Of a stretch of DNA of 64,000 nucleotides, positions 4,325 to 33,899 are shown piece after piece. The DNA is from Ulvibacter antarcticus (GTDB lineage Bacteria > Bacteroidota > Bacteroidia > Flavobacteriales > Flavobacteriaceae). Under the pieces are notes generated by a model. The model was not told the origin of the DNA. It saw nothing but the letters and a program-made list of their open reading frames with translations, and did not search any database. Made by a program: the position numbers and the translations under genes. The stretch covers positions 186,001-250,000 of the forward strand of contig NZ_REFC01000014.1 in NCBI RefSeq assembly GCF_003688405.1. The letters are read 5' to 3'. Within the stretch, counting starts at the first letter, position 1; every line of letters begins with the position of its first letter.

Positions 4325-7300
4325 ATGAAAAATGCCCCTATAATTCTTTTTTTAGCGATACTATTTGCTATACCTATCTCTTGTAATGAAAAAGCATCTT
4401 CTTATGATGAAGTCGCTAAACGACCTGAAACAAAAGGAAAAAGAGAACGTTCGGGTCACCCTGAAAAAAATGCTCTTTGGACTCCTGAAGAAGCTGCTAA
4501 TCACCAAAGAAAACTATTAAAAACAGCTCAATTTGCGAGACCCTTTAACCACAATAAGGCGCAGGCTATTACGTCATATGCCAATGGAGCTTTAACCGGC
4601 GAATGGGTAAACAGAGCTCCTAAAAATATGCCTGGTGCATTTAAGTTTGCCGAAATGTTAGATGGTACAGATATCATATATGGAGTTACCTGGAATCATT
4701 ATGTAGGAGAATATAATTCGTCATCTTACATACATAAAGGAACTGTTTATAACCCTACAACTGGAACCGGGGGAGATGATTTTCAAATAATAACTCCAAA
4801 CTGGCCTAACAGATATCAGAATCTGTTCGCATTTCAAATAACTGGTCAAGTACGCTTAGTAGCACAAATAGAGAGTGGACCCGTGTATTACTCTGATGAT
4901 GAAGGTGCAACATGGGTATTAGCCACAGGGCTTCCTGCTGCTACCACGAGTGCTGTAATTAATAGGCAAGATTCCAATAGAATATACGTTACCGAAGGGA
5001 CCACTGTTTATGTTTCTACTGATTTTGGTGCTAGTTTTTCAACGCTCCAAACCTTCCCATCATCACAGAGTTCGTTTTTATATACGCCTAGATATGCTGT
5101 ACAAGGCAATGCTCAAGAGGTTTATTTAGCGCGAAGCGGAAGTTTTTATAAACTGAACGCTGCTAAAACGAATTTTGATTTAAGAGGTACATATACGTCA
5201 TCGCACACAAACTCAGCATTTAGTATAGGCGGTGATGATAGTAAACTATATGTGACCGAAAATAAAAAATACTACGTTTCTACAGATGAAGGAAATAATT
5301 GGACAACAAAAACCCCTAATGGAAATTGGTATGGAGATACAAGCGGACCAATGGATGCAGGTTTCTTTATGGCTGTACACCCTACAAATACTGAGATATC
5401 TCTAGGAGGATATGCAATTCCTGTTATTTCAACAGACGGATTAGATAATGTACAAACAGATCATACGGGTTGGGGTAATTATCAAAACGGTACTAACTTA
5501 TCGGTTGCAGATTATCATAATCGCATTCGATTTAATTACCATCCAGATTTTCAATCTTCTCACTTTTTCTATAATAGTAGTGGTAATATATTGTCTGTTC
5601 GTTGTTCTGATGGGGGAATGTATGTTTCTTATAAAGAATGGACCGATTTTCCAGCTCCAGGAGCAGGTTATAATAATACAGATTATGCAAATGCACATTT
5701 CATCAACATTAATTTATTGAGTACAATTACTCCTTTAGTGTATCGAAAAACAATTTTTACGGGTAGTAATAATCCAGATCATATAAATTTTGCAACTCAA
5801 GATCAAGGATCTCAAAGCATTATACCAGGAACAAGTGGTGATGTTTTAGATTTTTATCAATCAATTGGTGGAGACGGGCAAACAATAGATAGCTATGATG
5901 GTGTTTCTGCTTGGAAGTGGGATTATAACGGTTCTAAAGTTTGGTCTCCCGTTTCAGTGTATGGTAATGGAGGTGCTTTTCAATCAATTGGAGCTATACA
6001 CGGACAGTTTAGCTCTAGTCAAACGGTTGACTTTACGGGAGCTACTGAAATGTACTGGGCACAAACATATATCGATCGTCATAACCCTGATCAAGCCCTT
6101 TGGGTACTTCGGAAAAATTTACACCGTGCAAAGTGGAATGGCACAACATTGACAGGTCTTACGATAACCAAAGGAATTAATCAAGTAGCAGCATTAGCAC
6201 AAGGTAGTGTGAATGCTAATAAATTATATATGCTCCAAGATGGAGATGTTTATATCTCTAATGATAGAGGAAATACTTTTGGTACAGCAATAAACACTCC
6301 TTTTAATAAAACAAATGGAGGTTGGACAAAAGGAGACATTGGAAGTGGAGTAGTGCTTCCAGGTAATGATAATTGGGTTATATTTTGTGGCCCTACTCTC
6401 GGTAATAATGTAGGTTCAATTTTATCGAAAGATGGAGGAACTACATGGATAGATGTTACTGGAGATTATCCAACAGGTGATGATACCCAGACAGGTGGAA
6501 TGGAAGTTACCCCTGATGGGAAATTTGTATTTGCGGGTACAGATATAGGTGCTTTTGTTTTTAATGTGGCTGAAGAAAAATGGTATTCATTATCTGAAGG
6601 TGCTGGGTTTTTTAATACCACAGATGTACAATATATAGCATCAACTAAGACCATGCGATTTGCTTCTTGGGGATCAGGAATACTTGATTTTAAAATTGAA
6701 GAATTAAACCCGGTGTGTTTAAGTGAATCAACAATTGTTCAAAATACAATTTCTATTCATTCTGTAAGTAGCCAACAAACAACTTCTGGAAATGAATCGG
6801 CAGCTAGTGTTTTAGATAATGACTCTAGTACATTCTGGCATACGAAATACAGTGCTCCAGCAGCTGTGTATCCTCATGAAATTGTTCTGGATTTAGGTAG
6901 TGCAAAAGTCATTAAAGCTTTTCGCTATTTACCGAGACAGTCAGGTTCGAATGGTCGAATTGCGAATTATGAAATATATATAACTAATAACACCGGTAAC
7001 TATGGAACTGCGGTTGCAACAGGTACGTGGCCTAATTCTTCTGCCGAAGAATTAGTAACTTTTACTCCAAAAGAAGGAAGATATGTTCGATTAAGAGCTT
7101 TGAGTGAGGTTAATGGTAATAATTGGGCTTCCGCTGCCGAATTAAATATTGTTGAGTGTGAAGCTGGTTGTATCAGTGGATCTACCACATACACTACGGC
7201 AGGTGGTTGGAGTAATGGTGCTCCTAATAGTTCTACCGAAGCTATCTTTAAAGATAGTTACAATACCAGCACTGGAAATATTACAGCTTGTGGATTAATA

Positions 7301-8833
7301 GTAGAAAATGGCGCTGTAGTAACAGTAGGTGCCGGAGAATACTTGTCGGTCGAAAGAAATATAAAAGTAGAAACAGGAGGTTCAATTATTGTGTCACATC
7401 AAGGAAGTGTTGTGCAGGTAGCTGATGACGCAGTTGTAATTAATAATGGAACTATTAATGTAAAATTAACTACTCCAGCGTTGAATGCACGTGACTTTAT
7501 GATTATGGGAAGCCCAATGACTGCTGCTAATAATACAATGTTTAGTGCTTATCAAGTCTTAAATCATACAACGGCGAACTTTACTCCATATGTAGGTACA
7601 CCAGCAGTTGTTGGTGTTAATTTCCACGATCAAGAAAGTAATGACTGGTCTAATTTTGTTGGACAACTAACACCTGGAGAAGGGTATTTAGTACGTCCAT
7701 CATACACCGCAGGAGGAACGTATAACTATGAGTATAATCAAGGTACCTTAAACAATGGAATAATTACATATTCAGCCTTCTTCGGTGATGACAAGGAAGA
7801 CAGTCCGAATGTGATATCCAATCCTTATGCTTCAGCTATTGATGCAACTATGTTGATTGCTAATAACGCGATGATTGATGAAGTTTATTTCTGGGAACAC
7901 TTAACAACTCCAGTTAGTGGAATTCCGGGACCATTAAATGAAAATTTCAACATGGAAGACATTTCGACCTATAATGGTACTATGGGAATCCCTGCTTCAA
8001 ACGATCCGGGAACTTCCACCACGCCTAATGGAGTTATTTCAACAGGGCAAGGTTTTGGAATTAAAGCCAATGCAGGAGGGAATGTAACTTTCAATAACGC
8101 AATGCGCTTAACTACCGGAAATACAACTTTGAGAAGATCGGTACCAAAAGACTTACTTTGGTTAACTGTTCGGGAAGGAGAGTACCATATGGGAAGCACA
8201 GCCGGAATAGGATTCCTTCAAAGTGCTTCGGAAAACCTTGATCCCGGATTCGACACTCAGAAATTAGGAACAGTGGTTTCGTTATATTCTCATTTACCTG
8301 ATGGAAGCGAACAACTAGGTATCCAAGGACGTGAAATATTTGATGATGCAATCACTATCCCAATGGGCTTCTCTACTTTAGTTGACGAAGATGGCGGATT
8401 GCCGTATGTTATCTCAATTTCAGATATGGAAGGAAGTTTAATCGAAGAAGCTACGGTTTATTTGATCGATCACCTCGAAAACACTGTGACCAACCTAAGT
8501 GAAGGTAATTATGAATTTGTCGCAGAGGCAGGAACGTATGACAACCGATTTACACTTCAGTTCGAGTCGTTGATATTGGATGTAAATGCTTCAGAATTAG
8601 ATGCTGTTTCCATATTCCCGAATCCTACTCAAAACACTATAAATATTGTATCTCCAAATGCCGCATTAACAGGTATTGAGATTTTTGATCTAAGAGGAAG
8701 AAGTGTGAAAAGAGTAACAATCACTTCCGAAACAACGCAACGTATAGACATTTCAAATCTTGAGAGTGCCCTTTATTTTGTGAAAATTTCTTCGGAAAAT
8801 GGATTAATTACAAAGCGAATTATTAAACAATAA
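4325..8833 (+). CDS. T9SS-secreted Asp-box beta-propeller protein with discoidin domain (array protein 1)
   Basis: 1502 residues. The N-terminus is a signal peptide, possibly of lipoprotein type (AIPISC, Cys20). Residues about 75-800 form a beta-propeller with repeated Asp-box motifs (S-x-D-x-G-x-x-W/F: YYSDDEGATW, YVSTDFGASF, VSTDEGNNW, LSKDGGTTW), as in sialidase- and sortilin-like proteins. Residues about 810-945 look like an F5/8 type C (discoidin) domain, which usually binds carbohydrate. Residues about 950-1410 (nt 7180-8560) are the module shared by all six array proteins. Residues 1419-1502 are a T9SS type A sorting domain (FPNPTQN, then YFVKI and a basic end KRIIKQ). Substrate and catalytic activity cannot be assigned. 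Own promoter and terminator. Confidence 0.9.
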   Translation: MKNAPIILFLAILFAIPISCNEKASSYDEVAKRPETKGKRERSGHPEKNALWTPEEAANHQRKLLKTAQFARPFNHNKAQAITSYANGALTGEWVNRAPKNMPGAFKFAEMLDGTDIIYGVTWNHYVGEYNSSSYIHKGTVYNPTTGTGGDDFQIITPNWPNRYQNLFAFQITGQVRLVAQIESGPVYYSDDEGATWVLATGLPAATTSAVINRQDSNRIYVTEGTTVYVSTDFGASFSTLQTFPSSQSSFLYTPRYAVQGNAQEVYLARSGSFYKLNAAKTNFDLRGTYTSSHTNSAFSIGGDDSKLYVTENKKYYVSTDEGNNWTTKTPNGNWYGDTSGPMDAGFFMAVHPTNTEISLGGYAIPVISTDGLDNVQTDHTGWGNYQNGTNLSVADYHNRIRFNYHPDFQSSHFFYNSSGNILSVRCSDGGMYVSYKEWTDFPAPGAGYNNTDYANAHFININLLSTITPLVYRKTIFTGSNNPDHINFATQDQGSQSIIPGTSGDVLDFYQSIGGDGQTIDSYDGVSAWKWDYNGSKVWSPVSVYGNGGAFQSIGAIHGQFSSSQTVDFTGATEMYWAQTYIDRHNPDQALWVLRKNLHRAKWNGTTLTGLTITKGINQVAALAQGSVNANKLYMLQDGDVYISNDRGNTFGTAINTPFNKTNGGWTKGDIGSGVVLPGNDNWVIFCGPTLGNNVGSILSKDGGTTWIDVTGDYPTGDDTQTGGMEVTPDGKFVFAGTDIGAFVFNVAEEKWYSLSEGAGFFNTTDVQYIASTKTMRFASWGSGILDFKIEELNPVCLSESTIVQNTISIHSVSSQQTTSGNESAASVLDNDSSTFWHTKYSAPAAVYPHEIVLDLGSAKVIKAFRYLPRQSGSNGRIANYEIYITNNTGNYGTAVATGTWPNSSAEELVTFTPKEGRYVRLRALSEVNGNNWASAAELNIVECEAGCISGSTTYTTAGGWSNGAPNSSTEAIFKDSYNTSTGNITACGLIVENGAVVTVGAGEYLSVERNIKVETGGSIIVSHQGSVVQVADDAVVINNGTINVKLTTPALNARDFMIMGSPMTAANNTMFSAYQVLNHTTANFTPYVGTPAVVGVNFHDQESNDWSNFVGQLTPGEGYLVRPSYTAGGTYNYEYNQGTLNNGIITYSAFFGDDKEDSPNVISNPYASAIDATMLIANNAMIDEVYFWEHLTTPVSGIPGPLNENFNMEDISTYNGTMGIPASNDPGTSTTPNGVISTGQGFGIKANAGGNVTFNNAMRLTTGNTTLRRSVPKDLLWLTVREGEYHMGSTAGIGFLQSASENLDPGFDTQKLGTVVSLYSHLPDGSEQLGIQGREIFDDAITIPMGFSTLVDEDGGLPYVISISDMEGSLIEEATVYLIDHLENTVTNLSEGNYEFVAEAGTYDNRFTLQFESLILDVNASELDAVSIFPNPTQNTINIVSPNAALTGIEIFDLRGRSVKRVTITSETTQRIDISNLESALYFVKISSENGLITKRIIKQ

Positions 8834-8851
8834 CAACATATTCATATTATT

Positions 8852-8889
8852 TAAAAACCGTTTCAGTTTTTCTGAAACGGCTTTTTTTT
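8852..8889 (+). terminator. Terminator after array gene 1
   Basis: Perfect stem CCGTTTCAG (8858-8866) / CTGAAACGG (8872-8880), preceded by an A run and followed by eight T. Confidence 0.92.
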
Positions 8890-9237: not shown

Positions 9238-9299
9238 ATGACTATTAAATAGACTGTCCGTTTTCCTCGTCGGACTATAATTTTAAACTAAATAGTCAT
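9238..9299 (+). promoter_or_regulatory. Leader hairpin that would pair with the start codon of array gene 2
   Basis: ATGACTATT (9238-9246) is the exact reverse complement of AATAGTCAT (9291-9299), which includes the first two bases of the ATG at 9298. Inside is a second stem GTCCG (9256-9260) / CGGAC (9271-9275). In the mRNA this would place the initiation region in a helix. Whether it regulates translation is inference. Confidence 0.5.
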
Positions 9300-12200
9300 G
9301 AGAACGAATACACTTTTAAAAAAGCAAGTACGCTTAAAGGGAATTATGGGTGCAATTGCAATACTGCTGTTTGCCACATTTCAATTAACAGCACAATCAA
9401 AAACGAGGCAGTATAATCCGAGGATCACCTCACAACAATTTCTGGAGGAACTTATGAGTAATCCTTCGGCAACTAATGAGTATGTCATTACATCACAACA
9501 TACAAGTTCGTTGAGTGGCGTAGAACATACTTACATTCGACAAGCAATCAACGGAATTGAAGTCTATGGAACCGAATCAAGTATGCACAAGGCATCTAAC
9601 GGAGCAACCATTAGAGCTCATGTAAACTTTGTTGCATCCATTGAAAATACGATAGTAAACAGTGCAGCAAGTATTAGTCCCGAAGAAGCTATTCAAGCAG
9701 TGGCAAATCAAATGGGATATACTGTTTTCAATTTGCAACAAAAGGGAAACCTTCGTGGTATTAACCAAAAAGGAGTTTTCAATGGAGGAGGTATTTCTAA
9801 CCGCGACATTCCAGTGAAATTAATGTATTACTATAAGCAAACTGAAGGTACACGATTGGTTTGGGAATTGTCTGTGAATGAAAAAAACACTGCAGACTGG
9901 TGGAATTTTCGAGTGGACGCGGCGACGGGAAAAATTATTGATAAAGACAATTGGACGGTTTCTTGCAATATCACAGGAGATCATAGCGAGGAAGGACATA
10001 ATGCTATGGCCACAAACCTTGAGTTAAAAACATCAAAAATTACAGATAAAATAACAATAGCTGATGTTGGTAAGAAGATAAGTGAAGGAGCTGTTTTAGT
10101 TCCAACCTACAAGGTTTTTCCAATGCCATTTGAAAGTCCTTACGATACTCCAAGGGTTCCTATACCTGCCCCCTCTCACCCTGTAGCTTCTCCCGATGGA
10201 TGGCATACAGTTGGAACTACCACTTATGCCTATACTAAAGGAAATAATATTTCGGCCTTTGATGATGGCGAGGATGATGATGTGGGCACAGAAGCAGATC
10301 ATACTCCGGAATCTGCTCCAGGACTAATCTTCGATTATGCGTTTGAAGCAACTGCAGCAGGACTGCCGGTTTATTTTGCAACAGATCAGTCTGAAGACGC
10401 TGCAATTACAAATTTGTTTTATTGGAATAATATTATACATGATATTACCTATTTATACGGGTTCGATGAAGTAGCAGGGAATTTTCAATCGACTAATTTC
10501 GGCTTAGGTGGTGAAGAAGGAGATAGTGTTGATGCTCAAGCTCAGGATAGTGCAGATCTTGCACCTACTAGTGGTAATCGCTGTAATGCAAATTTTGCGA
10601 CACCGCCAGACGGGGATATCCCCATTATGCAAATGTACATCTGCGATGGGCCAATGTCGCCAGGTTTACAAGATGGTAGTTACGATGCCCTCGTAGTTAC
10701 CCATGAATATGCTCATGGTATTTCTACTAGATTGGTTGGAGGGGCATGCTTCATACATCCTTTTGCCAATGCTGAACAGATGGGAGAAGGCTGGAGTGAT
10801 TTCTTTGGGTATATGCTAACAATGAACGATGATAATTTTGGTTCCGATAGACCTGTAGGAAACTTTTTAAAAGATCTGGGGCCTGTCGGACCAGGAATTA
10901 GACCGGCACCTTATAGTACAGATGGTTCGGTAAATGGTTTTACCTATGGAGATGTAGCCGATGCCGGTTCAATTTCAGTGCCTCATGGTATTGGTTTTAT
11001 CTGGGCGACTATGTTATATGATTTAACTCAGATTCTTATAGATGCATATGGTTTCGATCCAGATCTTCACTCTGGAACTGGCGGAAATAATATTGCACTA
11101 AAACTTGTTATGGAGGGAATGAAATTTACACCCGTAGTTCCAGGTTTTGTAAATGCTCGTGATGGCATCCTAGATGCTGATTTCGCGCTTACAGGCGGGG
11201 AAAACGAATGCTTCATCTGGCTGGCTTTTTCAGGAAGAGGCCTTGGCGTAGATGCCGATCAGGGCTCAACCTTCGATCGTTTTGATGGAATTCCTGGTTT
11301 CGATATGCCCGTGGCGTCGTTCACTCCAAGTCGATTGGAGCTTTGTGTTTCTGAAGGCATCGTAACTGGATTGGGTGGTGGAAGACTAGTTGGAGGTAGT
11401 TATAGTGGCTCTTTTGTAACCAATGCGGGCGACGGAAAGACCTTCGAATTTGATACAGCTACTGCTGGAGTTGGAACACATTCGATAACCTATTTCGACG
11501 CCTGCACTGGAACATCGGCGATGGCTACCATAGAGGTAATTCCCGATACTTTACCGATAGTGATTTGTAAAGATGCCACCGTGACCTTAGATGCTATGGG
11601 AGAAGCTACTATCGAAAATGATGACGTAATAGCAAATATTATCAAAGGAAATGGAAGTTTGGGATATGAAGTTGATGATGAAGGAGTATTTGCTCCCACA
11701 GTGATTGCAGGAACAGTAGTGACGTTAGCTGAAGATTCAGGAACCGGCCCATTACCAATTGGATTCGATTTTTCTTTCTTCGGAATTTCGTACGACGAGT
11801 TTTATATCGCTTCCAATGGTTTCGTATCCCTTACAGGAACAGGTCTGTCAGGTATTCCTTCCTATTCTTCAACTGTTATTCCCAAAGGAAGTCTACCCAA
11901 TGGGATGATTGCCCTTGCATGGACTGCACTAAGCCCACATGTTTCGGGAGTGGTTCAGTATAAAACCGTGGGAACCGAGCCTTTTAGAAAACTCGTGGTA
12001 AGTTATGAGGATGTACCATTTTACCTGTCAGCTAAAAAAGTAACAGTGCAGGTACATCTTTATGAAGGAACAAATATCATCGAGATACATAATACTTTAA
12101 TTGAAAGTGTTGATTTCCCTAAAACCCAAGGAATAGAAAATAAGCTGGGAGACAAAGGCTATGCATCTCCGGGAAGAAACTATACAGAATGGACTGCAGA

Positions 12201-14049
12201 CGAAGACATGGTGATATTTAAACCTATTAGCCCCGGAATGCCTGACAACTGTGGTAGTCCGGTGATCGTCACCCTAAGCAAATCTGACTTCACTTGCGAT
12301 GATATTGGAGTAAATGTTGTGACGGTAACCGTCGATGACGGAATGGGAGGAATTGATACTTGTACGGCAGAAGTTACTGTAGAAGGAACTTCAACCACAT
12401 GGACAGGTAGCTGGAGTGATTCGGCCCCAACATTGGGAAGCAAAGCTGTGTTTAGTTCGTCTTATAGTACTTCGACAGCCGATATAGATGCTTGTTCATG
12501 CGAAATTAATTCTGGAGCCACTATTACTGTGGAAGCCGGAGATTACTTAAATGTAAAACGCAACATTAGTGTTGAAGCTGGTTCAAGTTTAGTTGTTGAA
12601 CATACAGGGAATGTAACCCAAGTTGATGAAGATGTTCTTGTCACGAATGCAGGAACCATTAATGTGAAATTAACAACTCCCGATCTCACAGCTAGAGACT
12701 TTATGATCATGGGTAGTCCGATGAGCACGGAGGATGAAACCGTATTCACCGATGTGTTACCAGCGTATCAGGTGTTAAATCATACTACCGCCGATTTTGA
12801 TCCCTATGTCGGAACACCACCAGTGATAGGGGTAAATTTTCACGATATGGATAGCAACGATTGGTCGAACTTTACAGGAACTTTAAGTCCGGCAGAGGGT
12901 TATTTAGTTCGTCCATCTTATACTTCCAGTGGAACTTACGACTATTTATATGAAGCAGGAACATTGAACACCGGTGTGATTAGCTATGACGCCTATTTTG
13001 GAGATGATAAAGAAGATAGTCCGAACGTGCTTGCTAATCCGTATGCTTCTGCAATGGATGCCACTATGTTTATTGACCAAAATCCAATAGTTGATGAGGT
13101 ATATTTTTGGGAGCATCTTACCACACCTATAAGTGGAATTCCGGGACCATTAACGGAGAATTTTAGTATGGAAGATATTTCGACCTATAATGGAACCATG
13201 GGTATTCCTGCATCCAATGATACGGGAACTTCAACCACACCAAACGGTATTATTTCTACAGGACAGGGCTTCGGAATAAAGGCAAATGCAGCCGGAGACG
13301 TGAGTTTTACAAATGCTATGCGCTTAACAAGTGGAAATACAACGCTGAGAAGACCGGTTGCCAAAGATTTAATTTGGTTAACTGTTAGGGAAGGTGAATA
13401 TCATATGGGAAGTACTACTGGAATAGGTTTCCTTGAAAGTGCTTCGGAAAATTTGGATCCCGGATTCGATACTCAGAAATTAGGAACTGTAGTTTCACTT
13501 TACTCTCACTTACCCGATGGAAGCGAACAATTAGGCATTCAAGGCCGTGAAATTTTTGATTCTGAAATTACTATTCCGATGGGATTCTCAACTTTAATTG
13601 AAGCTGATGGGGGAATGCCTTACGTTATCTCGATTTCGGAATTGGATGGAAGTAATATCGAGGAAGCTACCGTTTATCTAATCGATCACTTAGAGAATAC
13701 AATAACTAATCTTAGCGATGGGAATTACGAATTTCTTTCAGATGCAGGAACTTTTGACAACCGATTTATCCTTCAGTTCGAATCTATCGTTTTGGAGACT
13801 GAAAGTCATGTGTTAGACGAAATTGCGATCTATCCTAATCCAGCTTCAGAAGTACTACAGATCTCTTCGCCAATAGTCCCAATTGAAAAGGTTGAGCTTA
13901 GAGATTTAATGGGAAGAATAATATATTCTGAAAGTTTCAGAAATGAAAATAATGTGAAATTGAATATTTCAACTGAAGCGACAGGAGTATATTTTGTGTC
14001 GGTAATCACTTCCGAAGGAACTATTGTAAAAAGATTGATAAAAAAGTAA
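9298..14049 (+). CDS. T9SS-secreted fungalysin-type (M36) metallopeptidase (array protein 2)
   Basis: 1583 residues. A signal peptide ends near LTAQS (about residue 35); Met17 is an alternative start. An N-terminal FTP-like propeptide (about 40-220) precedes the M36 catalytic domain. The zinc site is H469-E-Y-A-H473-G, with Glu497 in GEGWSDFF as third ligand, so a working secreted endopeptidase is expected. After the catalytic domain come a short Ig/HYR-like piece (ICKDATVTLD, about 750) and a domain with the pattern GFDFSFFG...SNGFVSL. The shared module is about 1033-1495 (nt 12395-13785) and the T9SS sorting domain about 1505-1583. Architecture is the same as the product at 29226-33899, so the two are paralogues. 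A leader hairpin overlaps its start. Confidence 0.93.
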   Translation: MRTNTLLKKQVRLKGIMGAIAILLFATFQLTAQSKTRQYNPRITSQQFLEELMSNPSATNEYVITSQHTSSLSGVEHTYIRQAINGIEVYGTESSMHKASNGATIRAHVNFVASIENTIVNSAASISPEEAIQAVANQMGYTVFNLQQKGNLRGINQKGVFNGGGISNRDIPVKLMYYYKQTEGTRLVWELSVNEKNTADWWNFRVDAATGKIIDKDNWTVSCNITGDHSEEGHNAMATNLELKTSKITDKITIADVGKKISEGAVLVPTYKVFPMPFESPYDTPRVPIPAPSHPVASPDGWHTVGTTTYAYTKGNNISAFDDGEDDDVGTEADHTPESAPGLIFDYAFEATAAGLPVYFATDQSEDAAITNLFYWNNIIHDITYLYGFDEVAGNFQSTNFGLGGEEGDSVDAQAQDSADLAPTSGNRCNANFATPPDGDIPIMQMYICDGPMSPGLQDGSYDALVVTHEYAHGISTRLVGGACFIHPFANAEQMGEGWSDFFGYMLTMNDDNFGSDRPVGNFLKDLGPVGPGIRPAPYSTDGSVNGFTYGDVADAGSISVPHGIGFIWATMLYDLTQILIDAYGFDPDLHSGTGGNNIALKLVMEGMKFTPVVPGFVNARDGILDADFALTGGENECFIWLAFSGRGLGVDADQGSTFDRFDGIPGFDMPVASFTPSRLELCVSEGIVTGLGGGRLVGGSYSGSFVTNAGDGKTFEFDTATAGVGTHSITYFDACTGTSAMATIEVIPDTLPIVICKDATVTLDAMGEATIENDDVIANIIKGNGSLGYEVDDEGVFAPTVIAGTVVTLAEDSGTGPLPIGFDFSFFGISYDEFYIASNGFVSLTGTGLSGIPSYSSTVIPKGSLPNGMIALAWTALSPHVSGVVQYKTVGTEPFRKLVVSYEDVPFYLSAKKVTVQVHLYEGTNIIEIHNTLIESVDFPKTQGIENKLGDKGYASPGRNYTEWTADEDMVIFKPISPGMPDNCGSPVIVTLSKSDFTCDDIGVNVVTVTVDDGMGGIDTCTAEVTVEGTSTTWTGSWSDSAPTLGSKAVFSSSYSTSTADIDACSCEINSGATITVEAGDYLNVKRNISVEAGSSLVVEHTGNVTQVDEDVLVTNAGTINVKLTTPDLTARDFMIMGSPMSTEDETVFTDVLPAYQVLNHTTADFDPYVGTPPVIGVNFHDMDSNDWSNFTGTLSPAEGYLVRPSYTSSGTYDYLYEAGTLNTGVISYDAYFGDDKEDSPNVLANPYASAMDATMFIDQNPIVDEVYFWEHLTTPISGIPGPLTENFSMEDISTYNGTMGIPASNDTGTSTTPNGIISTGQGFGIKANAAGDVSFTNAMRLTSGNTTLRRPVAKDLIWLTVREGEYHMGSTTGIGFLESASENLDPGFDTQKLGTVVSLYSHLPDGSEQLGIQGREIFDSEITIPMGFSTLIEADGGMPYVISISELDGSNIEEATVYLIDHLENTITNLSDGNYEFLSDAGTFDNRFILQFESIVLETESHVLDEIAIYPNPASEVLQISSPIVPIEKVELRDLMGRIIYSESFRNENNVKLNISTEATGVYFVSVITSEGTIVKRLIKK

Positions 14050-14206: not shown

Positions 14207-14425
14207 GTTTTATTGTTTTGTTGAAATAAACCCTTTTCATACTATTTGGAGAGGGTTTATTGCATTTATAACGCTAAGATGTTCTTTGGGAGCTGCTAAG
14301 AAAGTGCCAAATTTAATCACTAATATCATTGGCTTTTTTAAAATTCTGACTAATTCTTTGGTGATAATTAAGTGGAGGTTGTTTAGGATATTTTATAATA
14401 ATATCGCTAAAATGTTGCGTATCAA
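14207..14425. other. Non-coding gap before array gene 3
   Basis: AT-rich. Contains an inverted repeat AATAAACCCT (14225-14234) / AGGGTTTATT (14252-14261) that could be a weak terminator or processing site for the upstream gene; there is no T run after it. No other gene is supported. Confidence 0.5.
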
Positions 14426-14444
14426 CGATAAAGTGTTATTTTTG
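14415..14444 (+). promoter_or_regulatory. Promoter of array gene 3
   Basis: TTG (14415-14417), 19 bp spacer, TATTTTTG (14437-14444): a full match to the Bacteroidota promoter TTG-N19-TAnnTTTG, 51 nt before the ATG. The 13-mer CGATAAAGTGTTA (14426-14438) spans the spacer end and the start of the -7 box, exactly as before array gene 1. Confidence 0.7.
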
Positions 14445-19223: not shown

Positions 19224-19245
19224 ACTCCCTAGTTCATTAAATAAA

Positions 19246-19280
19246 AAGCCTGTGTCGAATTTCTCGATACGGGCTTTTTT
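19246..19280 (+). terminator. Terminator after array gene 3
   Basis: Stem AGCCTGTGTCGA / TCGATACGGGCT with two G-U type positions, flanked by an A run and followed by six T. Confidence 0.85.
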
Positions 19281-24855: not shown

Positions 24856-27800
24856 ATGATTAAAAATAACCCTGAATCCCTTCTACTAAAATCCCTAAAA
24901 ATGGGGCTTTTTACGATGGCTTTATTTTTGAGTTTTTTCACTCAGGCACAGTCCACAAGAACTTTAGATTATAAATCTAAAGTTACAGATCAAAACGCAA
25001 ACTTTTACGAGATAGTGACTCAAAAAAGAGCCGAATTTGCTGCAATGGATCTTTCCATTAAGGCGAATAATAAGGCGATGAAACAATTTGAACGATGGGC
25101 TTATATTTGGCAAGACAAAATAAATGTTGATGGTTCTTTTCCAACTGCTTCAAATCAGCTTTTATCTAAAGGTGATTATATTGGGAAGTTAATGGAAACT
25201 CAAGTTGAAAGCAGATCTCCAGAAACAAATCCCTGGACGCAAGTAGGTCCTGTAGATAGACCTTTAGCAAATGGTTATGTTGGTTATCCTGGGAAAGGAA
25301 GAGTAAATGTAATTACAGAAGACCCTTCAAACACTGATATTATGTATGCAGGATCTGCAGCGGGTGGTATTTGGAAAACTATAAACAATGGAGCACTTTG
25401 GTCTCCAAAATCTGATTTCCTAGCAGGTTTAGGAGTTACTGACATCCTTGTTGACCCAACTAACACCGATATTATTTATATGGCGACCGGAGATGAAGAT
25501 GGCGAGCATGTATCCTCAATAGGTGTGTTTAAATCTGCAGATGCAGGAGAAACTTGGGACCCGACAGGTTTAACGTTTAGTTTAGACCAAAATGAATATA
25601 TTAGAGACTTGGCATTTGCTCCGGGGAATAGTGCTAAGATATTTGCATTAACAAATGATGAGATTAGAGTTTCTACAAACAGTGGTTCATCATGGTCACT
25701 AGTTCCAGTGACTTATCCATATTCGCCTTATACTGAAGGTTTTCAAAACATTGTTTTTGACCCTAATGATGCTACGAAGGTTGTGGTTTCTGATAGTTAT
25801 GGTGGATTGTATTTTTCTACAGACGGAGGTGCGAATTTCGCCCTACATGGTACTATAGAAGGACTTAGTAGTGGTCAACAAAAATTGAAAATTGTTAGTT
25901 CTGCCAATGATGACGATTATTTCTATGGTATTCTTGAAGACCAAAGAAGTATGGGTTCAATAACAGAAGAAGCCTCATTCAGAAAGTATAGATATGCATA
26001 TAATAATACAGCAGCAGATTTAATTAGTACCACGACTCTAACAGGATTTAATTCGCAAGGTGGATACAATATAAATATTGCTGTTTCACCAATAAATCAG
26101 TTGAATATTCTTGTAGCTGGTGTTAATGGATTCCGTTCTACAGATGGAGGCGCTTCATTTACTACGCTAATGAATGCGTATAATGAGCCAGCCGGTGTAG
26201 GGTTTTATATCCACGCAGACCACCATCATATATCATTTGTAGGAAATACTGAAATGGTTTTAAATGGTCATGACGGTGGTGTTCACAAAGGGCCTTTTAG
26301 CGCAACTACAGCGACACCTTGGAATGATATTTCAAATACCTTAATAATAACACAACCGTATAATATTGCAGTTACCCAAGAAGCAGGCGGAGATAATTTT
26401 ATGATGGCGAACCAAGATAATGATGGTTTTTCTAAGATAATGCAAGGTGCTGGGCCAAATAAATGGCTTTCAGCGATTGCTGGTGATGGTACTTCAGCAG
26501 GAATAGACATTGTAAATTCGAATATTAGATATCTAGGTGGTACTAATGGACAATTATATCGCGCAGATGCTGGATATGCTGATGGTTATGACCAGGCTAC
26601 TTACATATTAGGATCGAATACTGACGCAGCCTTTGTTTCACAAATGTCTGTACATCCTTCGAATGCTAATATCATTTATGCTTGCCATGGTGACATAAAA
26701 AAATCGATTAATAAAGGAGGGACTGGAATACCAGCAGATTGGACTGCATTAGGTTCAGGCCTTACTGCTACTAAATTTATCGATGTTACTCCAAATGGCG
26801 GATCAATAAGAATTTACACCATAGGTGATGTAGGTACTACCGTAACAGCTAAGCGTAGTGATGACGATGGTGCTACTTGGACAACTATAACACCACCAGC
26901 TGGAGTAACCCTAAATAGTTTTTCTGCAGTGCCAAACTCTTTAACTGTTTACGCTTCGGCAAGTGGATATTCTGCTGGCAATAAAGTATACAAGTCTGTA
27001 GATGGTGGTGTCACTTGGACAAATATTAGTACAGGATTGCCAAACATTATTATAAAGAAGGTTGTTGCAAACAGAACGTCAACAGATGAAACTCTTTATT
27101 TAGGAACAGAATTAGGACCTTATTTTAGAACTAACATTGCAGATTGGTTAAAAATGGGAACAGGTTTACCAAATGTTAGAGTAGACGATTTAGAAATAAA
27201 CTACACGGACAATATACTGTACATCGGTACCTTTGGTCGAGGAATGTGGGGTATATCTATTGCGAATACTTGCCCAGGAGTTACAAAAACTTGGGACGGA
27301 AGCTGGACTCCTGCAGGAGCGCCTGATGCTACCGATACCGTAATTATCAACGCACTATATAATGCAGCGACCAACGGTAATTTAGAAGCATGTAAACTTA
27401 CTATCAATTCAGGGGTTACAGTTACTGTTCCTGCTTCATCATATATCCGTGTGAATGGAGATATATTAGTAGAAGGTACGTTAGACGTGGCACACGCTGG
27501 AAGTATAGTTCAGGTTGAAAATAACGCTGTAGTAACAAATAATGGGAATATCAATGTACAACTTACTACCCCTGCATTAAATGCGCGTGATTTTATGATC
27601 TTGGGGAGTCCTATGACTGCTTCAACTGAAACGACCTTTAATAGTGCGTATCAAGTATTACATCATACTGGGGCAAATTTCGATCCTTATGTAGGTACAC
27701 CGGCAGTAGTAGGAGTAAATTTCCACGATCAGGATAGCAATGATTGGTCAAATTTTTCTGGAACGCTAAATAAGAGCGAAGGATATTTGGTAAGACCTTC

Positions 27801-28932
27801 ATATGTATCTGGTGGAACTTATAATTACACATTTAGTCAAGGAACTTTAAACACCGGTGTAATTTTGAACACCGCTTATTTTAGTGTTGATAAGGAAAAA
27901 AGCCCGAATATTCTTTCGAATCCGTATGCTTCTGCCATCGATGCTGCTTTGTTTATCTCTTCCAATGCTATGGTTGATGAGGTTTATTTCTGGGAGCATT
28001 TAACTACTCCTGCTGTTGGTATCCCGGGACCATTGGGAGAAAACTTTAGTATGGAAGATATATCTACCTACAATGGTACAATGGGACTGCCTGCATCCAA
28101 CGATCCGGGAACTTCGACTACACCTAACGGAATTATTTCAACTGGACAAGGCTTCGGAATTAAGGCTAATGCAGGTGGAAATATCACTTTTAATAATGCG
28201 ATGCGCTTAACAAGTGGAAACACTACTTTGAGAAGACCCGTTGAAAAGGATCTATTATGGATATCGGTTCGTGAAGGTGAATATCATATGGGAAGTACTA
28301 CCGGAATAGGATTTTTAGAAAGTGCTACTGCCGGTTTAGATCAAGGTTACGACACTCAAAAACTTGGAACTGTAGTATCGCTTTATTCACATTTATTGGA
28401 TGGTAGCGAACAACTTGGTATACAAGGAAGAGAAGCTTTCAATTCTGAATTGACTATCCCATTAGGATTCTCTACAATGATTGAAGCTGACGGTGGATTG
28501 CCTTATGTGATTTCAGTTTCTAATCTGGAAGGATCGTTAATTGAAGCCGCCAATGTTTATTTGGTAGATCATTTAGAAAATACTATTACCAATTTAAGTG
28601 AGGGTACTTATGATTTCTTGTCAGAGGCAGGAACATTCAACAATCGATTTACACTTCAATTCCAGGAGTTGGTACTTAGTAATGACCAATCTCAAATGGA
28701 AGATATTTCGGTTTTCCCAAATCCAACACAAGATGTGATCAATATAGTTTCTACCACAACAACAATTACTAAGGTAGAAATCTATGATGTAAGAGGAAGA
28801 TTATTGTTCACTTCAGATGTTAATTCAAACAACGTTACTTCTGTTGACCTGTCTGGATTTGACAGTGCAATATATTTTGCAAGAATCTATTCTAATGATA
28901 ATTCGATAACTAAACGAATCGCAAAAGAATAG
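24856..28932 (+). CDS. T9SS-secreted sortilin-like beta-propeller protein (array protein 5)
   Basis: 1358 residues, the shortest of the six. The signal peptide follows a basic stretch and ends near FTQAQS (about residue 32). The N-terminal NFYEIVTQKRAEF...FERW segment matches that of array protein 4. The propeller extends from about 95 to 800 with Asp-box motifs (KTINNGALW, KSADAGETW, FSTDGGANF, RSTDGGASF, KSVDGGVTW) and ends in TFGRGMWGIS. The shared module follows directly (about 803-1270, nt 27265-28665). Its front part (CPGVTKTW, TNGNLEACKLTINSG) is closest to that of array protein 3. The sorting domain occupies about 1280-1358. No binding or catalytic site can be assigned. Confidence 0.9.
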   Translation: MIKNNPESLLLKSLKMGLFTMALFLSFFTQAQSTRTLDYKSKVTDQNANFYEIVTQKRAEFAAMDLSIKANNKAMKQFERWAYIWQDKINVDGSFPTASNQLLSKGDYIGKLMETQVESRSPETNPWTQVGPVDRPLANGYVGYPGKGRVNVITEDPSNTDIMYAGSAAGGIWKTINNGALWSPKSDFLAGLGVTDILVDPTNTDIIYMATGDEDGEHVSSIGVFKSADAGETWDPTGLTFSLDQNEYIRDLAFAPGNSAKIFALTNDEIRVSTNSGSSWSLVPVTYPYSPYTEGFQNIVFDPNDATKVVVSDSYGGLYFSTDGGANFALHGTIEGLSSGQQKLKIVSSANDDDYFYGILEDQRSMGSITEEASFRKYRYAYNNTAADLISTTTLTGFNSQGGYNINIAVSPINQLNILVAGVNGFRSTDGGASFTTLMNAYNEPAGVGFYIHADHHHISFVGNTEMVLNGHDGGVHKGPFSATTATPWNDISNTLIITQPYNIAVTQEAGGDNFMMANQDNDGFSKIMQGAGPNKWLSAIAGDGTSAGIDIVNSNIRYLGGTNGQLYRADAGYADGYDQATYILGSNTDAAFVSQMSVHPSNANIIYACHGDIKKSINKGGTGIPADWTALGSGLTATKFIDVTPNGGSIRIYTIGDVGTTVTAKRSDDDGATWTTITPPAGVTLNSFSAVPNSLTVYASASGYSAGNKVYKSVDGGVTWTNISTGLPNIIIKKVVANRTSTDETLYLGTELGPYFRTNIADWLKMGTGLPNVRVDDLEINYTDNILYIGTFGRGMWGISIANTCPGVTKTWDGSWTPAGAPDATDTVIINALYNAATNGNLEACKLTINSGVTVTVPASSYIRVNGDILVEGTLDVAHAGSIVQVENNAVVTNNGNINVQLTTPALNARDFMILGSPMTASTETTFNSAYQVLHHTGANFDPYVGTPAVVGVNFHDQDSNDWSNFSGTLNKSEGYLVRPSYVSGGTYNYTFSQGTLNTGVILNTAYFSVDKEKSPNILSNPYASAIDAALFISSNAMVDEVYFWEHLTTPAVGIPGPLGENFSMEDISTYNGTMGLPASNDPGTSTTPNGIISTGQGFGIKANAGGNITFNNAMRLTSGNTTLRRPVEKDLLWISVREGEYHMGSTTGIGFLESATAGLDQGYDTQKLGTVVSLYSHLLDGSEQLGIQGREAFNSELTIPLGFSTMIEADGGLPYVISVSNLEGSLIEAANVYLVDHLENTITNLSEGTYDFLSEAGTFNNRFTLQFQELVLSNDQSQMEDISVFPNPTQDVINIVSTTTTITKVEIYDVRGRLLFTSDVNSNNVTSVDLSGFDSAIYFARIYSNDNSITKRIAKE

Positions 28933-28952
28933 AGTAAACTTAAATTTTTTAA

Positions 28953-28989
28953 AGCCCGTTTTCCATTTTGGAAAACGGGCTTTTTTTTT
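28953..28989 (+). terminator. Terminator after array gene 5
   Basis: Perfect 12-bp stem AGCCCGTTTTCC (28953-28964) / GGAAAACGGGCT (28970-28981) followed by T8. Confidence 0.95.
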
Positions 28990-29225: not shown

Positions 29226-32200
29226 ATGAAAAGAAAAAATTTTATCGATTATGACAACGTGATCAAGAGAATTATGTTCACCCTGGTCATGACAATTTTA
29301 AGTCTGTCTACTGTTTCTGTTATTGCTCAGAATAATAAACCTGAGAAAAAACAATCTATGACTTCTGAATATTTAGCCCAATTGGTAAAAGAAGGAAAGT
29401 CAGATGATATTGTGATTACTGCAGAACATATTAGTTCTCTCTCCGGAACCCACCATATTTATCTTCTACAAGCTATTAACGGTATTGGTATCAATGGAAC
29501 TGAATCAAGTGTGCATATAGATGCTTCCGGAAAAGTAATAAAGGTAAATAATGCCTTTATAGATCGTCCTAAGTTAATAACTCAAACTACGACTGCGGCA
29601 CTTAGTGCAAGAGATGCGATACTCTCAGTAGCTCAGAAAATGAATTATTCTATCAGTAATCTTCAAGAAGTCAATCGAAAAGGAGGTGTGAACCAAGAGG
29701 TGACATTCAATACAGGAGGAATTTCTAGAATTAACATTCCGGTGAAACTCATTTATCAGCTAACAGAAAATAATACTATCCAATTATCTTGGGAGCTTTC
29801 TATCGATGATGTCAACAGCCCTGAAGATTGGTGGAATTTTAGAGTAGACGCCAACACTGGTGAAATTCTAAGTAAGAATAATTTTATTGCGCAGTGTTAT
29901 TTAGAGCATAGTCATTCGCATGAAGCTTTTATCGGACCTATAAACAAGTCTGAAGAAGCAACTGTTTCCGAAGAAAACTCTACGGCATTAATTGGTACTT
30001 ATAACGTTTTTGCCATACCGGTTGAAAGTCCGAACCATGGTGCTCGAACTTCTATTGTAGATCCTCATTTGGATGGAACAGGTTCACCTTTTGGGTGGCA
30101 TGATACAAATGGTTCAGCAGGAGCAGAATTTACAGATACTAGAGGAAATAATATTGATGCGTTTGGATTTAATACCGGGAATAGAGCGAATGGTGGAGGA
30201 AGCTTAAACTTTAACTTTACTCTGGATCTAAATGCAGGCGCTTTAACGCAAGAAAATGCTGCACTTACCAATATGTTTTATATGGGGAATATTATGCACG
30301 ATGTAACTTATGAATATGGGTTTACTGAAGCTGCTGGAAATTTTCAAGAAAACAATTATGGAAATGGGGGAGCGGGAAGTGACTATGTAGTAGGAGAAGG
30401 TCAAAAAACAGGGCAATGTAATGCTTTTTTTGGCACACCAGCCGACGGAGGTAATCCTACCATGCAAATGTTCATATGCGTATATGGAGGTGCTACCGGA
30501 GATCGTGATGGTGATTTTGATAATGGAGTAATTGCTCACGAATATGGTCATGGTATTTCTAACAGATTAACTGGAGGCCCAGGCACAACCGGATGTCTTG
30601 GTAATCAGGAACAAATGGGTGAAGGTTGGAGTGATTATTTTGGACTTGTCTTAACAATCGAACCTGGTGATGCAGGAACAGATCCTAGAGGAATGGGTAC
30701 TTGGTTGGCCGGACAAGTTTCAACCGGTGCCGGTATTCGATCACAACGTTACGACACCGATACTAATACATACACTTACGATTCTATTAAAACAGAAGTT
30801 GCACCTCATGGGGTAGGGTCTGTTTGGGCAATGATGCTTTGGGAAATGACCTGGGATTTAATTGATGAATATGGTTTTGACCCTGATGTCTATAATGGTA
30901 CTGGAGGAAATAATATTGCTTTAGCATTGGTTATGGAAGGATTGAAATTGCAACCGTGTAATCCTGGATTTGTAGATGGTAGAGATGCTATTCTTCAGGC
31001 CGATTTAAATCTATATGGAGGCGCTAATCAGTGTCTTATTTGGACCGCTTTTGCAGGAAGAGGATTAGGTTTTAGTGCCAATCAAGGATCTACTGGCAGC
31101 AAAAATGATGGAACACAAGCTTTCGATCTTCCACCTGGAAGCGCAGTCTTTGTAGCCGATATCGATACGGTTTGTATAACAAATGGAGTACAAAACGGTG
31201 TTGGCGGTGGTGCACCTGTAGGAGGTACCTATAGTGGGACTGGTGTAACTGATGACGGAAATGGAACTTCTTATACTTTCGATCCAACCGTAGCTGGTGT
31301 AGGAACTGCAAACGTAGTTTATACTGTTTTTGATACTTGTTCTGGTGCAACTGCTAATTTAAATCAAACAATAGAAGTCACAGATGGTATTCCAATTTTA
31401 GTATGTAACGATATTACTGTTACCTTGGACGGTGCCGGAAATGCTTCAATTGTTAATAGTGACGTTGCCAATACTGCACCCGATACTACTCAGTACACCG
31501 TAGATCAGACAGGGACTTTTAGCCCCATCGATATTTCAGGTTCTGCTACCAGTGTCAGTCTTATTGAAGATGGACCTTCCGGCTTATTACCCTTAGGATT
31601 TACTTTTTCTTTCTTCGGAAATGATTTTACAAACTTTTACTTGCAGTCCAATGGATTTTTATCATTCGACAATTCCGGAACTACAGGTAGTGCTTCCTGG
31701 ACGCCGGTGGCAATTCCAAATACCGGTGGACCGAATAATATGATTGCCTACTTTTGGGACGATATGAGCCCACAGTTGGGTGGAACTGTACAATATGCAA
31801 CAATAGGTACTGCGCCAAATAGAATTTTGGTAGTTGACTATATAAATATCAGACAATATAATATTAATGGAACAGGAAATCAGATTACCACTCAGGTACA
31901 ACTTTATGAAGGATCCTCTCACATTGAAGTACATACAACCTCAGCACCAAATGGTGGTGGTTTAAATCGTACACAAGGAGTAGAGAATGCCAATGGCACA
32001 GCAGGATTTTTCGTACCTGGTAGAAACGGGGTGCCTTTCGCACTCACGAACGACGTGGTGAGGTTTATCCCACTTATTACGGAAGCATTGGCAGATAATT
32101 GCGGCAGCCCAGTAACACTTACACTTAGTCAATCCAATTTTACATGTAGAGATATAGGTGTAAATACAGTAACTGTTACAGCAGATGATGGAATTGGCGG

Positions 32201-33899
32201 CATGGCAACTTGTGATGCCATGGTTACTGTGATTGGTGAAACAACGATCTATACCGGAAGTTGGGACAATGGGAATCCCGATGCTGGTAAAAAGGCAGTT
32301 TTCAGCACGAGCTATAATACGTCTATTGCAGATATAGACGCATGTTCTTGTGAGATCAATAATAATGCTACCGTTACCGTGGGTGCAGACGATTATATGA
32401 GTATAGATGGTAATATAACAGTGGATGCGGGATCGTCATTGATCGTAGAACACACAGGAAATGTGGTACAGATTGATGATGCTGCATTAGTCACAAACAA
32501 TGGAACGATTAATGTTCAACTTACTACTCCAGCTTTGAATGCCCGTGATTTTATGATAATGGGAAGTCCTATGACAGCTGATGACGAAAATGTATTTACA
32601 GATGGATTACCGGCTTATCAAGTGTTATTTCACACAACTGCAAATTTTGATCCTTACGTCGGCACACCTCCGGTAGTGGGAGTGAATTTCCACGATCAGG
32701 ATAGTAACGATTGGGCTAATTTTTCAGGAACTTTAAACGCAGGGGAAGGCTATTTAATTCGACCGTCTTTTGCGAATAGTGGTTCCTATAATTACGTCTA
32801 CAATCAAGGTACCTTAAATAATGGTGAAATTTTATATCCTGCCTATTTTGGCGATGATAAAGAAGATAGTCCAAATGTAATTTCGAATCCGTACGCTTCT
32901 GCTATGGATGCTGCTTTATTTATTTCATCCAATGCAATGGTTGATGAGGTTTATTTCTGGGAACATTTAACTACTCCGGCTGGTGGTATTCCGGGGCCAT
33001 TGAATGAGAACTTTAGTATGGAGGATATTTCCACTTATAACGGGACAATGGGTATACCGGCCTCTAACGATCCCGGAACTTCCACCACTCCAAATGGTAT
33101 TATTTCTACAGGACAAGGCTTCGGAATTAAAGCCAATGCAGGAGGAAATGTTACATTCAACAACGCCATGCGCTTAACCAGTGGAAATACCACTTTAAGA
33201 AGACCTGTTGAAAAGGATCTATTATGGATAATGGTTCGCGAAGGTCAATATCATATGGGTAGTACTACCGGAATTGGATTTTTAGAAAATGCGACTGCCG
33301 GATTGGATCAAGGTTACGATACTCAAAAACTTGGAACCGTTGTTTCGCTTTATACACATTTGTTAGATGGAAGCGAACAACTTGGTATTCAGGGAAGAGA
33401 AGCTTTCAACCCTGATATTACTATTCCAATGGGATTCTCAACCTTAATCCAAGCTGATGCTGGATTGCCTTATGTGATCTCTATTTCAGATCTAGAAGGA
33501 ACTTTAATTGAAGAGGCAACGGTGTATTTAATAGATCATCAAGAAAATACTGTTACTAATTTAAGTGAAGCTAATTACACATTCTTATCAGATGCCGGGA
33601 CCTTCAACAACCGATTTACTATTCAGTTTGAAGGACTTGTGTTGGGTACGGTAAATAATACATTGGAAGATATAGCATTGTATCCAAATCCAACTCAGAA
33701 TATGATAACAATTGTATCGCCGGGTATTATGATAGCTAAAGCAGAGGTTTATGATGTGCGCGGAAGAAAAGTGAATGAAGTTTCGTTTGCAAATGAAAAC
33801 GATTATCATCTTGATCTTTCTAACTTAGAATCGGCAATGTATTTTGTGAAAATTTCTTCGGAAAACGGATCAATTACAAAACGAATTGTGAAATATTAA
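29226..33899 (+). CDS. T9SS-secreted fungalysin-type (M36) metallopeptidase (array protein 6)
   Basis: 1557 residues from the ATG at 29226; the open frame extends upstream to a GTG at 29163, but the signal peptide only makes sense from 29226 (KRKNF...VSVIAQ). An FTP-like propeptide is followed by an M36 catalytic domain with zinc motif H438-E-Y-G-H442-G and Glu466 in GEGWSDYF. Then come an Ig/HYR-like segment (VCNDITVTLD), a GFTFSFFG...SNGFLSF domain, the shared module (nt about 32230-33630) and a T9SS sorting domain (nt about 33655-33899). The order of domains is identical to array protein 2. The last 25 residues match array proteins 3 and 4 much better than the middle of the sorting domain does, suggesting gene conversion. 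Confidence 0.93.
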   Translation: MKRKNFIDYDNVIKRIMFTLVMTILSLSTVSVIAQNNKPEKKQSMTSEYLAQLVKEGKSDDIVITAEHISSLSGTHHIYLLQAINGIGINGTESSVHIDASGKVIKVNNAFIDRPKLITQTTTAALSARDAILSVAQKMNYSISNLQEVNRKGGVNQEVTFNTGGISRINIPVKLIYQLTENNTIQLSWELSIDDVNSPEDWWNFRVDANTGEILSKNNFIAQCYLEHSHSHEAFIGPINKSEEATVSEENSTALIGTYNVFAIPVESPNHGARTSIVDPHLDGTGSPFGWHDTNGSAGAEFTDTRGNNIDAFGFNTGNRANGGGSLNFNFTLDLNAGALTQENAALTNMFYMGNIMHDVTYEYGFTEAAGNFQENNYGNGGAGSDYVVGEGQKTGQCNAFFGTPADGGNPTMQMFICVYGGATGDRDGDFDNGVIAHEYGHGISNRLTGGPGTTGCLGNQEQMGEGWSDYFGLVLTIEPGDAGTDPRGMGTWLAGQVSTGAGIRSQRYDTDTNTYTYDSIKTEVAPHGVGSVWAMMLWEMTWDLIDEYGFDPDVYNGTGGNNIALALVMEGLKLQPCNPGFVDGRDAILQADLNLYGGANQCLIWTAFAGRGLGFSANQGSTGSKNDGTQAFDLPPGSAVFVADIDTVCITNGVQNGVGGGAPVGGTYSGTGVTDDGNGTSYTFDPTVAGVGTANVVYTVFDTCSGATANLNQTIEVTDGIPILVCNDITVTLDGAGNASIVNSDVANTAPDTTQYTVDQTGTFSPIDISGSATSVSLIEDGPSGLLPLGFTFSFFGNDFTNFYLQSNGFLSFDNSGTTGSASWTPVAIPNTGGPNNMIAYFWDDMSPQLGGTVQYATIGTAPNRILVVDYINIRQYNINGTGNQITTQVQLYEGSSHIEVHTTSAPNGGGLNRTQGVENANGTAGFFVPGRNGVPFALTNDVVRFIPLITEALADNCGSPVTLTLSQSNFTCRDIGVNTVTVTADDGIGGMATCDAMVTVIGETTIYTGSWDNGNPDAGKKAVFSTSYNTSIADIDACSCEINNNATVTVGADDYMSIDGNITVDAGSSLIVEHTGNVVQIDDAALVTNNGTINVQLTTPALNARDFMIMGSPMTADDENVFTDGLPAYQVLFHTTANFDPYVGTPPVVGVNFHDQDSNDWANFSGTLNAGEGYLIRPSFANSGSYNYVYNQGTLNNGEILYPAYFGDDKEDSPNVISNPYASAMDAALFISSNAMVDEVYFWEHLTTPAGGIPGPLNENFSMEDISTYNGTMGIPASNDPGTSTTPNGIISTGQGFGIKANAGGNVTFNNAMRLTSGNTTLRRPVEKDLLWIMVREGQYHMGSTTGIGFLENATAGLDQGYDTQKLGTVVSLYTHLLDGSEQLGIQGREAFNPDITIPMGFSTLIQADAGLPYVISISDLEGTLIEEATVYLIDHQENTVTNLSEANYTFLSDAGTFNNRFTIQFEGLVLGTVNNTLEDIALYPNPTQNMITIVSPGIMIAKAEVYDVRGRKVNEVSFANENDYHLDLSNLESAMYFVKISSENGSITKRIVKY

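Follow-up and report, generated by a model that had tools for sequence, protein, structure and literature searches.

Why should six proteins with different N-terminal parts, encoded one after another, all end in the same way? The question is raised by six consecutive large open reading frames (ORFs; 4325-33899, + strand) in a 64,000-nucleotide stretch of Ulvibacter antarcticus DNA, here called the window, all of them type A cargo genes of the type IX secretion system (T9SS). In each product a shared module lies directly before the C-terminal sorting domain (CTD), behind a head that can be quite unrelated, and module and sorting domain together behave as an exchangeable, genome-matched display tail. 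With some reserve, we favour a reading in which each protein joins an exchangeable head to this tail of ~550 residues, the module acting as a plinth that aids retention, and in which the interval between nqrF and apbE, where the cluster lies, is a site of turnover for such genes.

One module behind six heads

An earlier note on this DNA had described six consecutive T9SS proteins with different heads and one common module ahead of the sorting domain, and BLASTP, MAFFT and Pfam bear this out, giving the module ~475 residues. Over the shared region, which includes the ~72 residues of the CTD, the six tails are pairwise 59-77% identical whatever the head (BLASTP E = 0; profile scores 935-993 bits). 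The six genes (g1 to g6) and their parts are as follows.

4325..8833, + strand: g1, with an F5/8C domain and a weak BNR-like propeller match as head, module and type A CTD (Pfam)
7187..8611, + strand: g1 module, residues 955-1429 (BLASTP, MAFFT)
8612..8830, + strand: g1 CTD, T9SS type A sorting domain (PF18962, TIGR04183)
9298..14049, + strand: g2, with FTP propeptide and M36 metallopeptidase as head, module and CTD (Pfam, NCBIfam)
12391..13827, + strand: g2 module, from residue 1032 (BLASTP, MAFFT)
13828..14046, + strand: g2 CTD (PF18962, TIGR04183)
14496..19223, + strand: g3, with S8 subtilase head, module and CTD (Pfam)
17565..19001, + strand: g3 module, from residue 1024 (BLASTP, MAFFT)
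19002..19220, + strand: g3 CTD (PF18962, TIGR04183)
19399..24096, + strand: g4, with Sortilin-Vps10 propeller and GEVED as head, module and CTD (Pfam)
22444..23874, + strand: g4 module, from residue 1016 (BLASTP, MAFFT)
23875..24093, + strand: g4 CTD (PF18962, TIGR04183)
24856..28932, + strand: g5, with Sortilin-Vps10 propeller head, module and CTD (Pfam)
27283..28710, + strand: g5 module, from residue 810 (BLASTP, MAFFT)
28711..28929, + strand: g5 CTD (PF18962, TIGR04183)
29226..33899, + strand: g6, with FTP and M36 metallopeptidase as head, module and CTD (Pfam, NCBIfam); a further in-frame GTG (29163) precedes the ATG (29226)
32241..33677, + strand: g6 module, from residue 1006 (BLASTP, MAFFT)
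33678..33896, + strand: g6 CTD (PF18962, TIGR04183)

Pfam also agrees with the heads as first described, namely three of propeller type, two M36 peptidases and one S8 protease, the propeller match of g1 being weak. The M36 heads of g2 and g6 match PF02128 at E 4e-114 and 9e-126, together with PF07504 (FTP) and PF18962. No significant similarity was found among heads of different classes when the six proteins were compared, and the only head pairs that are clearly related are g2/g6 (42% identical) and g4/g5 (27%). Pfam, which found M36, S8, Sortilin-Vps10/BNR and F5/8C, reported no lectin family in the six heads. Between peptidase and module, g2 and g6 have a segment of ~350 residues that is 46-51% identical to U. 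litoralis M4 and M43 proteins (L025:13609-18204, L026:4028-8470) and is not common to the U. litoralis M36 protein; from its sequence this region appears to be a second exchangeable middle segment.

The signals for export stand at both ends. All six proteins have hydrophobic N-termini, judged by eye, and five of the six signal peptides so judged end before Q (TAQ, FSQ, NSQ, QAQ, IAQ; for the Q-rule for signal peptide ends, see PMC10653852). The type A CTD at each C-terminus scores 50-57 bits with TIGR04183 (cut-off 23) and is also matched by Por_Secre_tail (PF18962). In g1 (4325-4400) and its U. litoralis orthologue, lipoprotein-like N-termini (PISCNEK, CTTSCKEDK) go with a T9SS CTD, which is an unusual pairing of signals.

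The place of the module is fixed: of 117 proteins, two of them cut by contig ends, almost all have 74-89 residues between the end of the module and the C-terminus, and the C-termini are of type A in 43 of 43 sampled relatives. Two of the stretches that had been quoted as invariant, RDFMI(M/L)GS and MEDISTYNGTMG, are so in all six modules, whereas the other four have one or two exceptions each: GVNFHDQ reads GVNFHDM in g2 and GVNFYDQ in g4, SNPYASA reads ANPYASA in g2, GQGFGIKAN reads AQGFGIKAN in g4 and LGIQGRE reads FGIQGRE in g3.

No Pfam or NCBIfam family covers the module in any of 92 homologues. Modelled from g6 (window:32208-33674) with a multiple sequence alignment of these homologues, the module is predicted by AlphaFold2 to be one confident all-beta unit (pLDDT 92.8, pTM 0.90), with short solenoid-like strands at residues 43-106 and a last lobe at ~337-477; from the six window modules alone, pLDDT was 35. 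The idea, put forward at the outset, of one common module with interchangeable heads is supported, and the module is a folded unit whose position ahead of the CTD is constant. Foldseek gave no significant match in the PDB for the whole module (best E 0.03, TM-score at most 0.15), and the best VIA-align Z was 5.1 over 83 residues, where Z below 8 is non-specific. A literature search, largely outside subscription papers, gave no description of the module or of the nqrF-apbE island.

Two matches to the module model fall below E 0.001 in the viral structure library BFVD. The better one, UniProt A0A8D9C8P8 (Foldseek E 6e-20, TM 0.51, 17% identity), is a record of an uncultured marine phage and may be host sequence that was misassigned; searches of phage records and viral contigs turned up no relative, so no phage link is claimed. 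PLSDB plasmids gave two weak module matches only (Flammeovirga, Persicobacter).

Some module proteins are nearly headless (L085:2555-4465, L082:9749-11671), with a signal peptide, a strip of ~50 residues (FTVGE type), the module and the CTD. The 164-residue CTD proteins of the window have a comparable strip and belong to a recent tandem duplication of a two-gene unit on the - strand (50971-52502 and 53172-54709; 94.3% DNA identity over 1276 bp). The unit pairs this CTD protein with a protein of 343/345 residues that has no Pfam family, and the terminal ~256 bp of the larger gene have diverged between the copies.

Heads and tails have different histories

Orthologues or near-orthologues of several heads occur in other genomes, where they stand on distant tails. 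Compared with the U. litoralis gene at the same locus, g1 is 62.5% identical in the head over 953 residues and 45% in the module. The corresponding values are 64% and 46% for g6 and the U. litoralis M36 protein, 78% and 45% for g5 and a Patiriisocius marinistellae protein, and 63% and 50% for g3 and a protein of genome L076. Sliding identity falls at the head-tail border in comparisons with other genomes and rises there among paralogues of the same genome, and sorting domain and module change together.

Tree-based evidence leads to the same conclusion. The tails of this genome and the eight of U. litoralis form separate clades (support 100/100), and 32 positions are fixed within each of the two sets and differ between them. 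Over 94 tails the genome label changes 52 times, against 77.6 when shuffled, and none of 200 shuffles came as low. The approximately unbiased (AU) test rejects head-defined tail clades in four of the five cases tested (g1, p 9e-5; g3, 1e-31; g6, 3e-6; g4, 3e-4). Heads and tails thus have different histories.

The likeness of the tails within this genome is old. Fourfold sites are 34-49% identical among the six tails, near saturation, and the longest stretches of exact DNA match measure 17-43 nt. With silent sites in this state and protein identity of 59-77%, the tail must be under strong purifying selection, which, rather than recent gene conversion, has kept the tails alike. Proteins of the GBD_T9SS_assoc type (PF23759), one in this genome (C1:141853-145827) and one in U. 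litoralis (C38), also have the module and have inherited head and tail together, and thus serve as a vertical control; their modules are 79% identical, a value which suggests that divergence among the tails of this genome dates from about the time of the split from U. litoralis, or earlier.

A clustered family of the Flavobacteriaceae

How common is the module? According to genome searches, this genome has nine copies, six in the cluster and three elsewhere, among ~121 CTD genes over the Pfam cut-off. At E 1e-15 the module is found in 29 of 60 relatives, nearly all of the same family, and a genome that has it will usually have several copies. When 148 Bacteroidota were drawn evenly, it was found in 12 genomes of the same family (this one included), in one other family of the same order and, weakly, in two genomes of other orders, and a pattern scan of species genomes gave at least 519 confirmed module loci. 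The module family is a Flavobacteriaceae family. Across 64 relatives its heads include M36, M4, M10, S8, Sortilin-Vps10, LVIVD, GEVED, MAM, Cleaved_Adhesin, LRR and ThuA.

Module genes also tend to cluster, as the earlier note had supposed. For 70 of 166 module genes (31 genomes) another lies within 10 kb, where uniform placement would give 5.25, and when nine CTD genes of this genome were drawn at random, a chain of six arose in 0 of 200,000 draws. These statistics rule out a routine linker scattered as single copies, the outcome that the earlier note had named as speaking against its reading. A parallel cluster is seen in Flavobacterium panici, a relative of F. johnsoniae, where four consecutive module genes (L120, 2814-21346) have glycine-rich, DUF7507 and DUF5122-propeller heads.

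One chromosomal address with changing occupants

The six genes sit between nqrF and DUF4846-apbE. The borders of this island, and the putative transcription signals within it, are listed here.

2698..4005, + strand: nqrF, left island border (Pfam Fer2/FAD/NAD domains)
8858..8880, + strand: hairpin 3' of g1, intrinsic terminator-like (consensus match only)
14415..14444, + strand: Bacteroidota-type promoter-like site upstream of g3, TTG-N19-TATTTTTG
19243..19279, + strand: terminator-like hairpin 3' of g3, 16 pairs
28951..28983, + strand: terminator-like hairpin 3' of g5, 15 pairs, T run
33927..33954, + strand: terminator-like hairpin 3' of g6
34057..34929, + strand: gene of a DUF4846 protein, between cluster and apbE
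35285..36292, + strand: apbE, right island border

In 39 genomes with nqrF and apbE on one contig, the interval is below 3.3 kb in 32, and the present one, at 31.3 kb, is the largest. The interval is empty in many relatives; two genomes, one of the same genus (G001) and G042, have only 750 and 480 bp between the two genes, with one ORF of 120 residues and no module gene. On the other hand, nqrF stands beside one to three module genes in at least ten other genomes (U. litoralis, L050, L051, L056, L057, L072, L075, L077, L091 and G015). The occupants differ. U. litoralis (G003) has two module genes from nqrF up to apbE, and L057 has two beside nqrF; Altibacter lentus has one S8 module gene, Patiriisocius marinistellae one of Sortilin type that is related to g5, and an uncultured Ulvibacter has GEVED and g5-type genes. 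Module genes with an M36 head (UBA4166) and an S8 head (UBA3356) are found at nqrF as well, as are three in L050 (ThuA/DUF4832, M4, M36), two in L051 (Calx-beta, M36), an M10-headed one in L072, the last three genomes being Flavobacteriaceae, and an M36 gene in G015 that is cut by the contig end. The G002 assembly is interrupted within this interval; the beginning of a g2-type head lies at one edge of the gap, and a CTD-end fragment at the opposite edge.

These intervals thus describe one chromosomal address at which the number of module genes ranges from zero to six and the heads vary, and the locus has the appearance of a site where heads of surface proteins are swapped in nature. Draft contigs break inside module genes (G003 C46 and C24; G015 C18/C23; G002 C31/C44), which probably makes clusters in drafts look smaller than they are.

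The suggestion that the locus builds a single secreted machine is disfavoured. Terminator-like hairpins follow four of the six genes (g1, g3, g5, g6) and promoter-like boxes precede three (g1, g3, g5), those of g1 and g5 being TANNTTTG at 34-35 nt upstream of the ATG; judged on sequence, these are likely to be separate transcription units. Furthermore, three copies are unlinked, and relatives have zero to three genes at the address.

How the tail may work

The reading that we favour can be put as a sequence of steps. The signal peptide would carry the protein across the inner membrane, and the CTD would take it to the SprA/PorV translocon, as is known for type A cargo (PMC10994853). PorU would then remove the CTD, by analogy with the known type A pathway; in P. 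gingivalis PorU cuts the CTD and attaches cargo to anionic lipopolysaccharide (A-LPS; reviewed in PMC10202324), and the genome studied here encodes a PorU sortase (NF033707, 1321 bits, G000:C5:123318-126704). The module would thereby become the surface-proximal end of the mature protein, where it would most likely serve as a rigid plinth, keeping the head at a distance from the surface and aiding retention in a glycan-rich surface layer. Because one genome has like tails behind unlike heads, a new head may be fitted to an already working tail by recombination where the two meet, with the tail as the stable partner. The nqrF-apbE interval would be a preferred site, within a clade, where head-tail genes sit, multiply and turn over, and in this genome it would have expanded to six.

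Several observations weigh against this reading. First, published fusions show that the CTD can do without the module, both in export and, in part, in retention at the surface: the sorting domain of F. johnsoniae, ~100 residues, exports mCherry or sfGFP on its own (PMC10994853, PMC12618676), and SprB with only the RemA CTD is retained at the surface, although immobile (PMC12618676). The module is thus neither the export signal nor the only anchor, and its earlier description as a surface anchor becomes doubtful. Second, the head-defined tail clade of g5 is not rejected (p 0.166), and the tails of the GBD_T9SS_assoc proteins follow their heads (support 99), so that head-tail exchange is not universal; the latter clade also shows that the tree method is able to detect vertical inheritance. 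Finally, 96 of the 166 module genes are unclustered, which is most copies in most genomes.

Alternative explanations

Tentatively, the same observations can be read in another way, although we would not expect it to prevail: within one clade of Flavobacteriaceae, the nqrF-apbE interval would be a conserved island of surface proteins that combine a genome-matched tail with exchangeable heads, and the tails would be matched through a common genome-specific partner, which might be each other, a shuttle or attachment complex, or the cell's own glycan. If this were true, a cell could take in foreign heads but would accept them only on its own tail.

The glycan may instead be the answer, the C-terminal lobe of the module binding the cell's own exopolysaccharide or lipopolysaccharide and so keeping secreted enzymes within the surface matrix, with genome-specific surface glycans giving genome-specific tails. 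The weak VIA matches of this lobe include carbohydrate-associated beta sandwiches, among others, and RemA, described as a mobile surface lectin, offers a parallel, in that RemA-HaloTag-CTD(RemA), where HaloTag is placed ahead of the CTD, shows a fraction that is mobile and non-helical and the SprB fusion is immobile, so that something upstream of the CTD matters (PMC12618676). However, the matches reach Z 4.5 at most, within the non-specific range, and the RemA effect may stem from its lectin head, which leaves a retention domain of this kind improbable. A routine secretion spacer, which would help long cargo to fold or pass after CTD docking and whose clustering would be plain tandem duplication, we regard as unlikely too. 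The fixed position beside the CTD and the near-headless short proteins (L085, L082) would fit it, but mCherry-CTD and sfGFP-CTD are exported without it, and only nine of this genome's ~121 CTD genes have a module, so most cargo manages in its absence.

A further proposal is that the modules bind each other, homotypically or heterotypically, to assemble the six heads into one multi-enzyme surface complex for which tails must match. Tails that are alike within a genome and different between genomes, the 32 set-specific positions, strong purifying selection and clustering would all agree with this. The transcription units are apparently separate, on the other hand, and gene number varies down to genomes with a single module gene; duplication of a resident tail would also make the tails of one genome alike. 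Such a platform seems quite unlikely. Recent gene conversion, finally, would also group the tails of one genome, and one marginal g3-g6 tract lies near the CTD (p 0.002, uncorrected), but the fourfold sites and short exact runs exclude recent events and are better explained by duplication or replacement long ago, with purifying selection since, making homogenization very improbable.

Comparison with known systems

The module belongs to a domain family that is large, occurs in secreted proteins of flavobacteria, including the model adhesins RemA and RemZ, and has neither a name nor a Pfam or NCBIfam model; its boundary, its confident fold and its census now make the family testable. With its constant address, its varying heads and tails that match the genome, the locus offers a natural experiment on the ways in which Bacteroidota renew the equipment of their surface. 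The module is relevant, too, to the retention or release of type A cargo once the CTD is cut, and together with the CTD it is a candidate display tail for F. johnsoniae.

The CTD itself (TIGR04183/PF18962) is a known unit, from which the module is separate, having no counterpart in most CTD proteins of this genome. The T9SS-dependent M36 family NF038113 is strongly matched by g2 and g6, at 642.5 and 707.8 bits, though below the equivalog cut-off of 885; its model, of 869 positions, runs from the M36 domain straight to the CTD and has no room for a module. With RemA-type gliding adhesins the six proteins do not share a lectin-type head, and there is no support for a part specific to gliding, peptidases and propellers making up most of the heads.

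The closest comparison is nevertheless with F. johnsoniae. Against the sequences of solved structures the module profile has exactly two matches, RemZ (E 4.8e-118) and RemA (E 2.7e-105), over positions 3-476 of 477. In RemZ (Fjoh_0803; PDB 8GL8/8GLM/8GLN) the full-length module occupies 574-1033 of 1114 residues, and in RemA (PDB 8GL6) 898-1355 of 1436, each followed by a type A CTD. Both are PorV/SprA cargo (PMC10994853). In the cryo-EM structures of RemZ the CTD alone is well resolved (PMC10994853), which leaves the module itself structurally unsolved, and in the text searched the module is not presented as a domain. Their heads differ from those of the six cluster proteins, RemA being described as a lectin adhesin, and the tail of module and type A CTD is the same.

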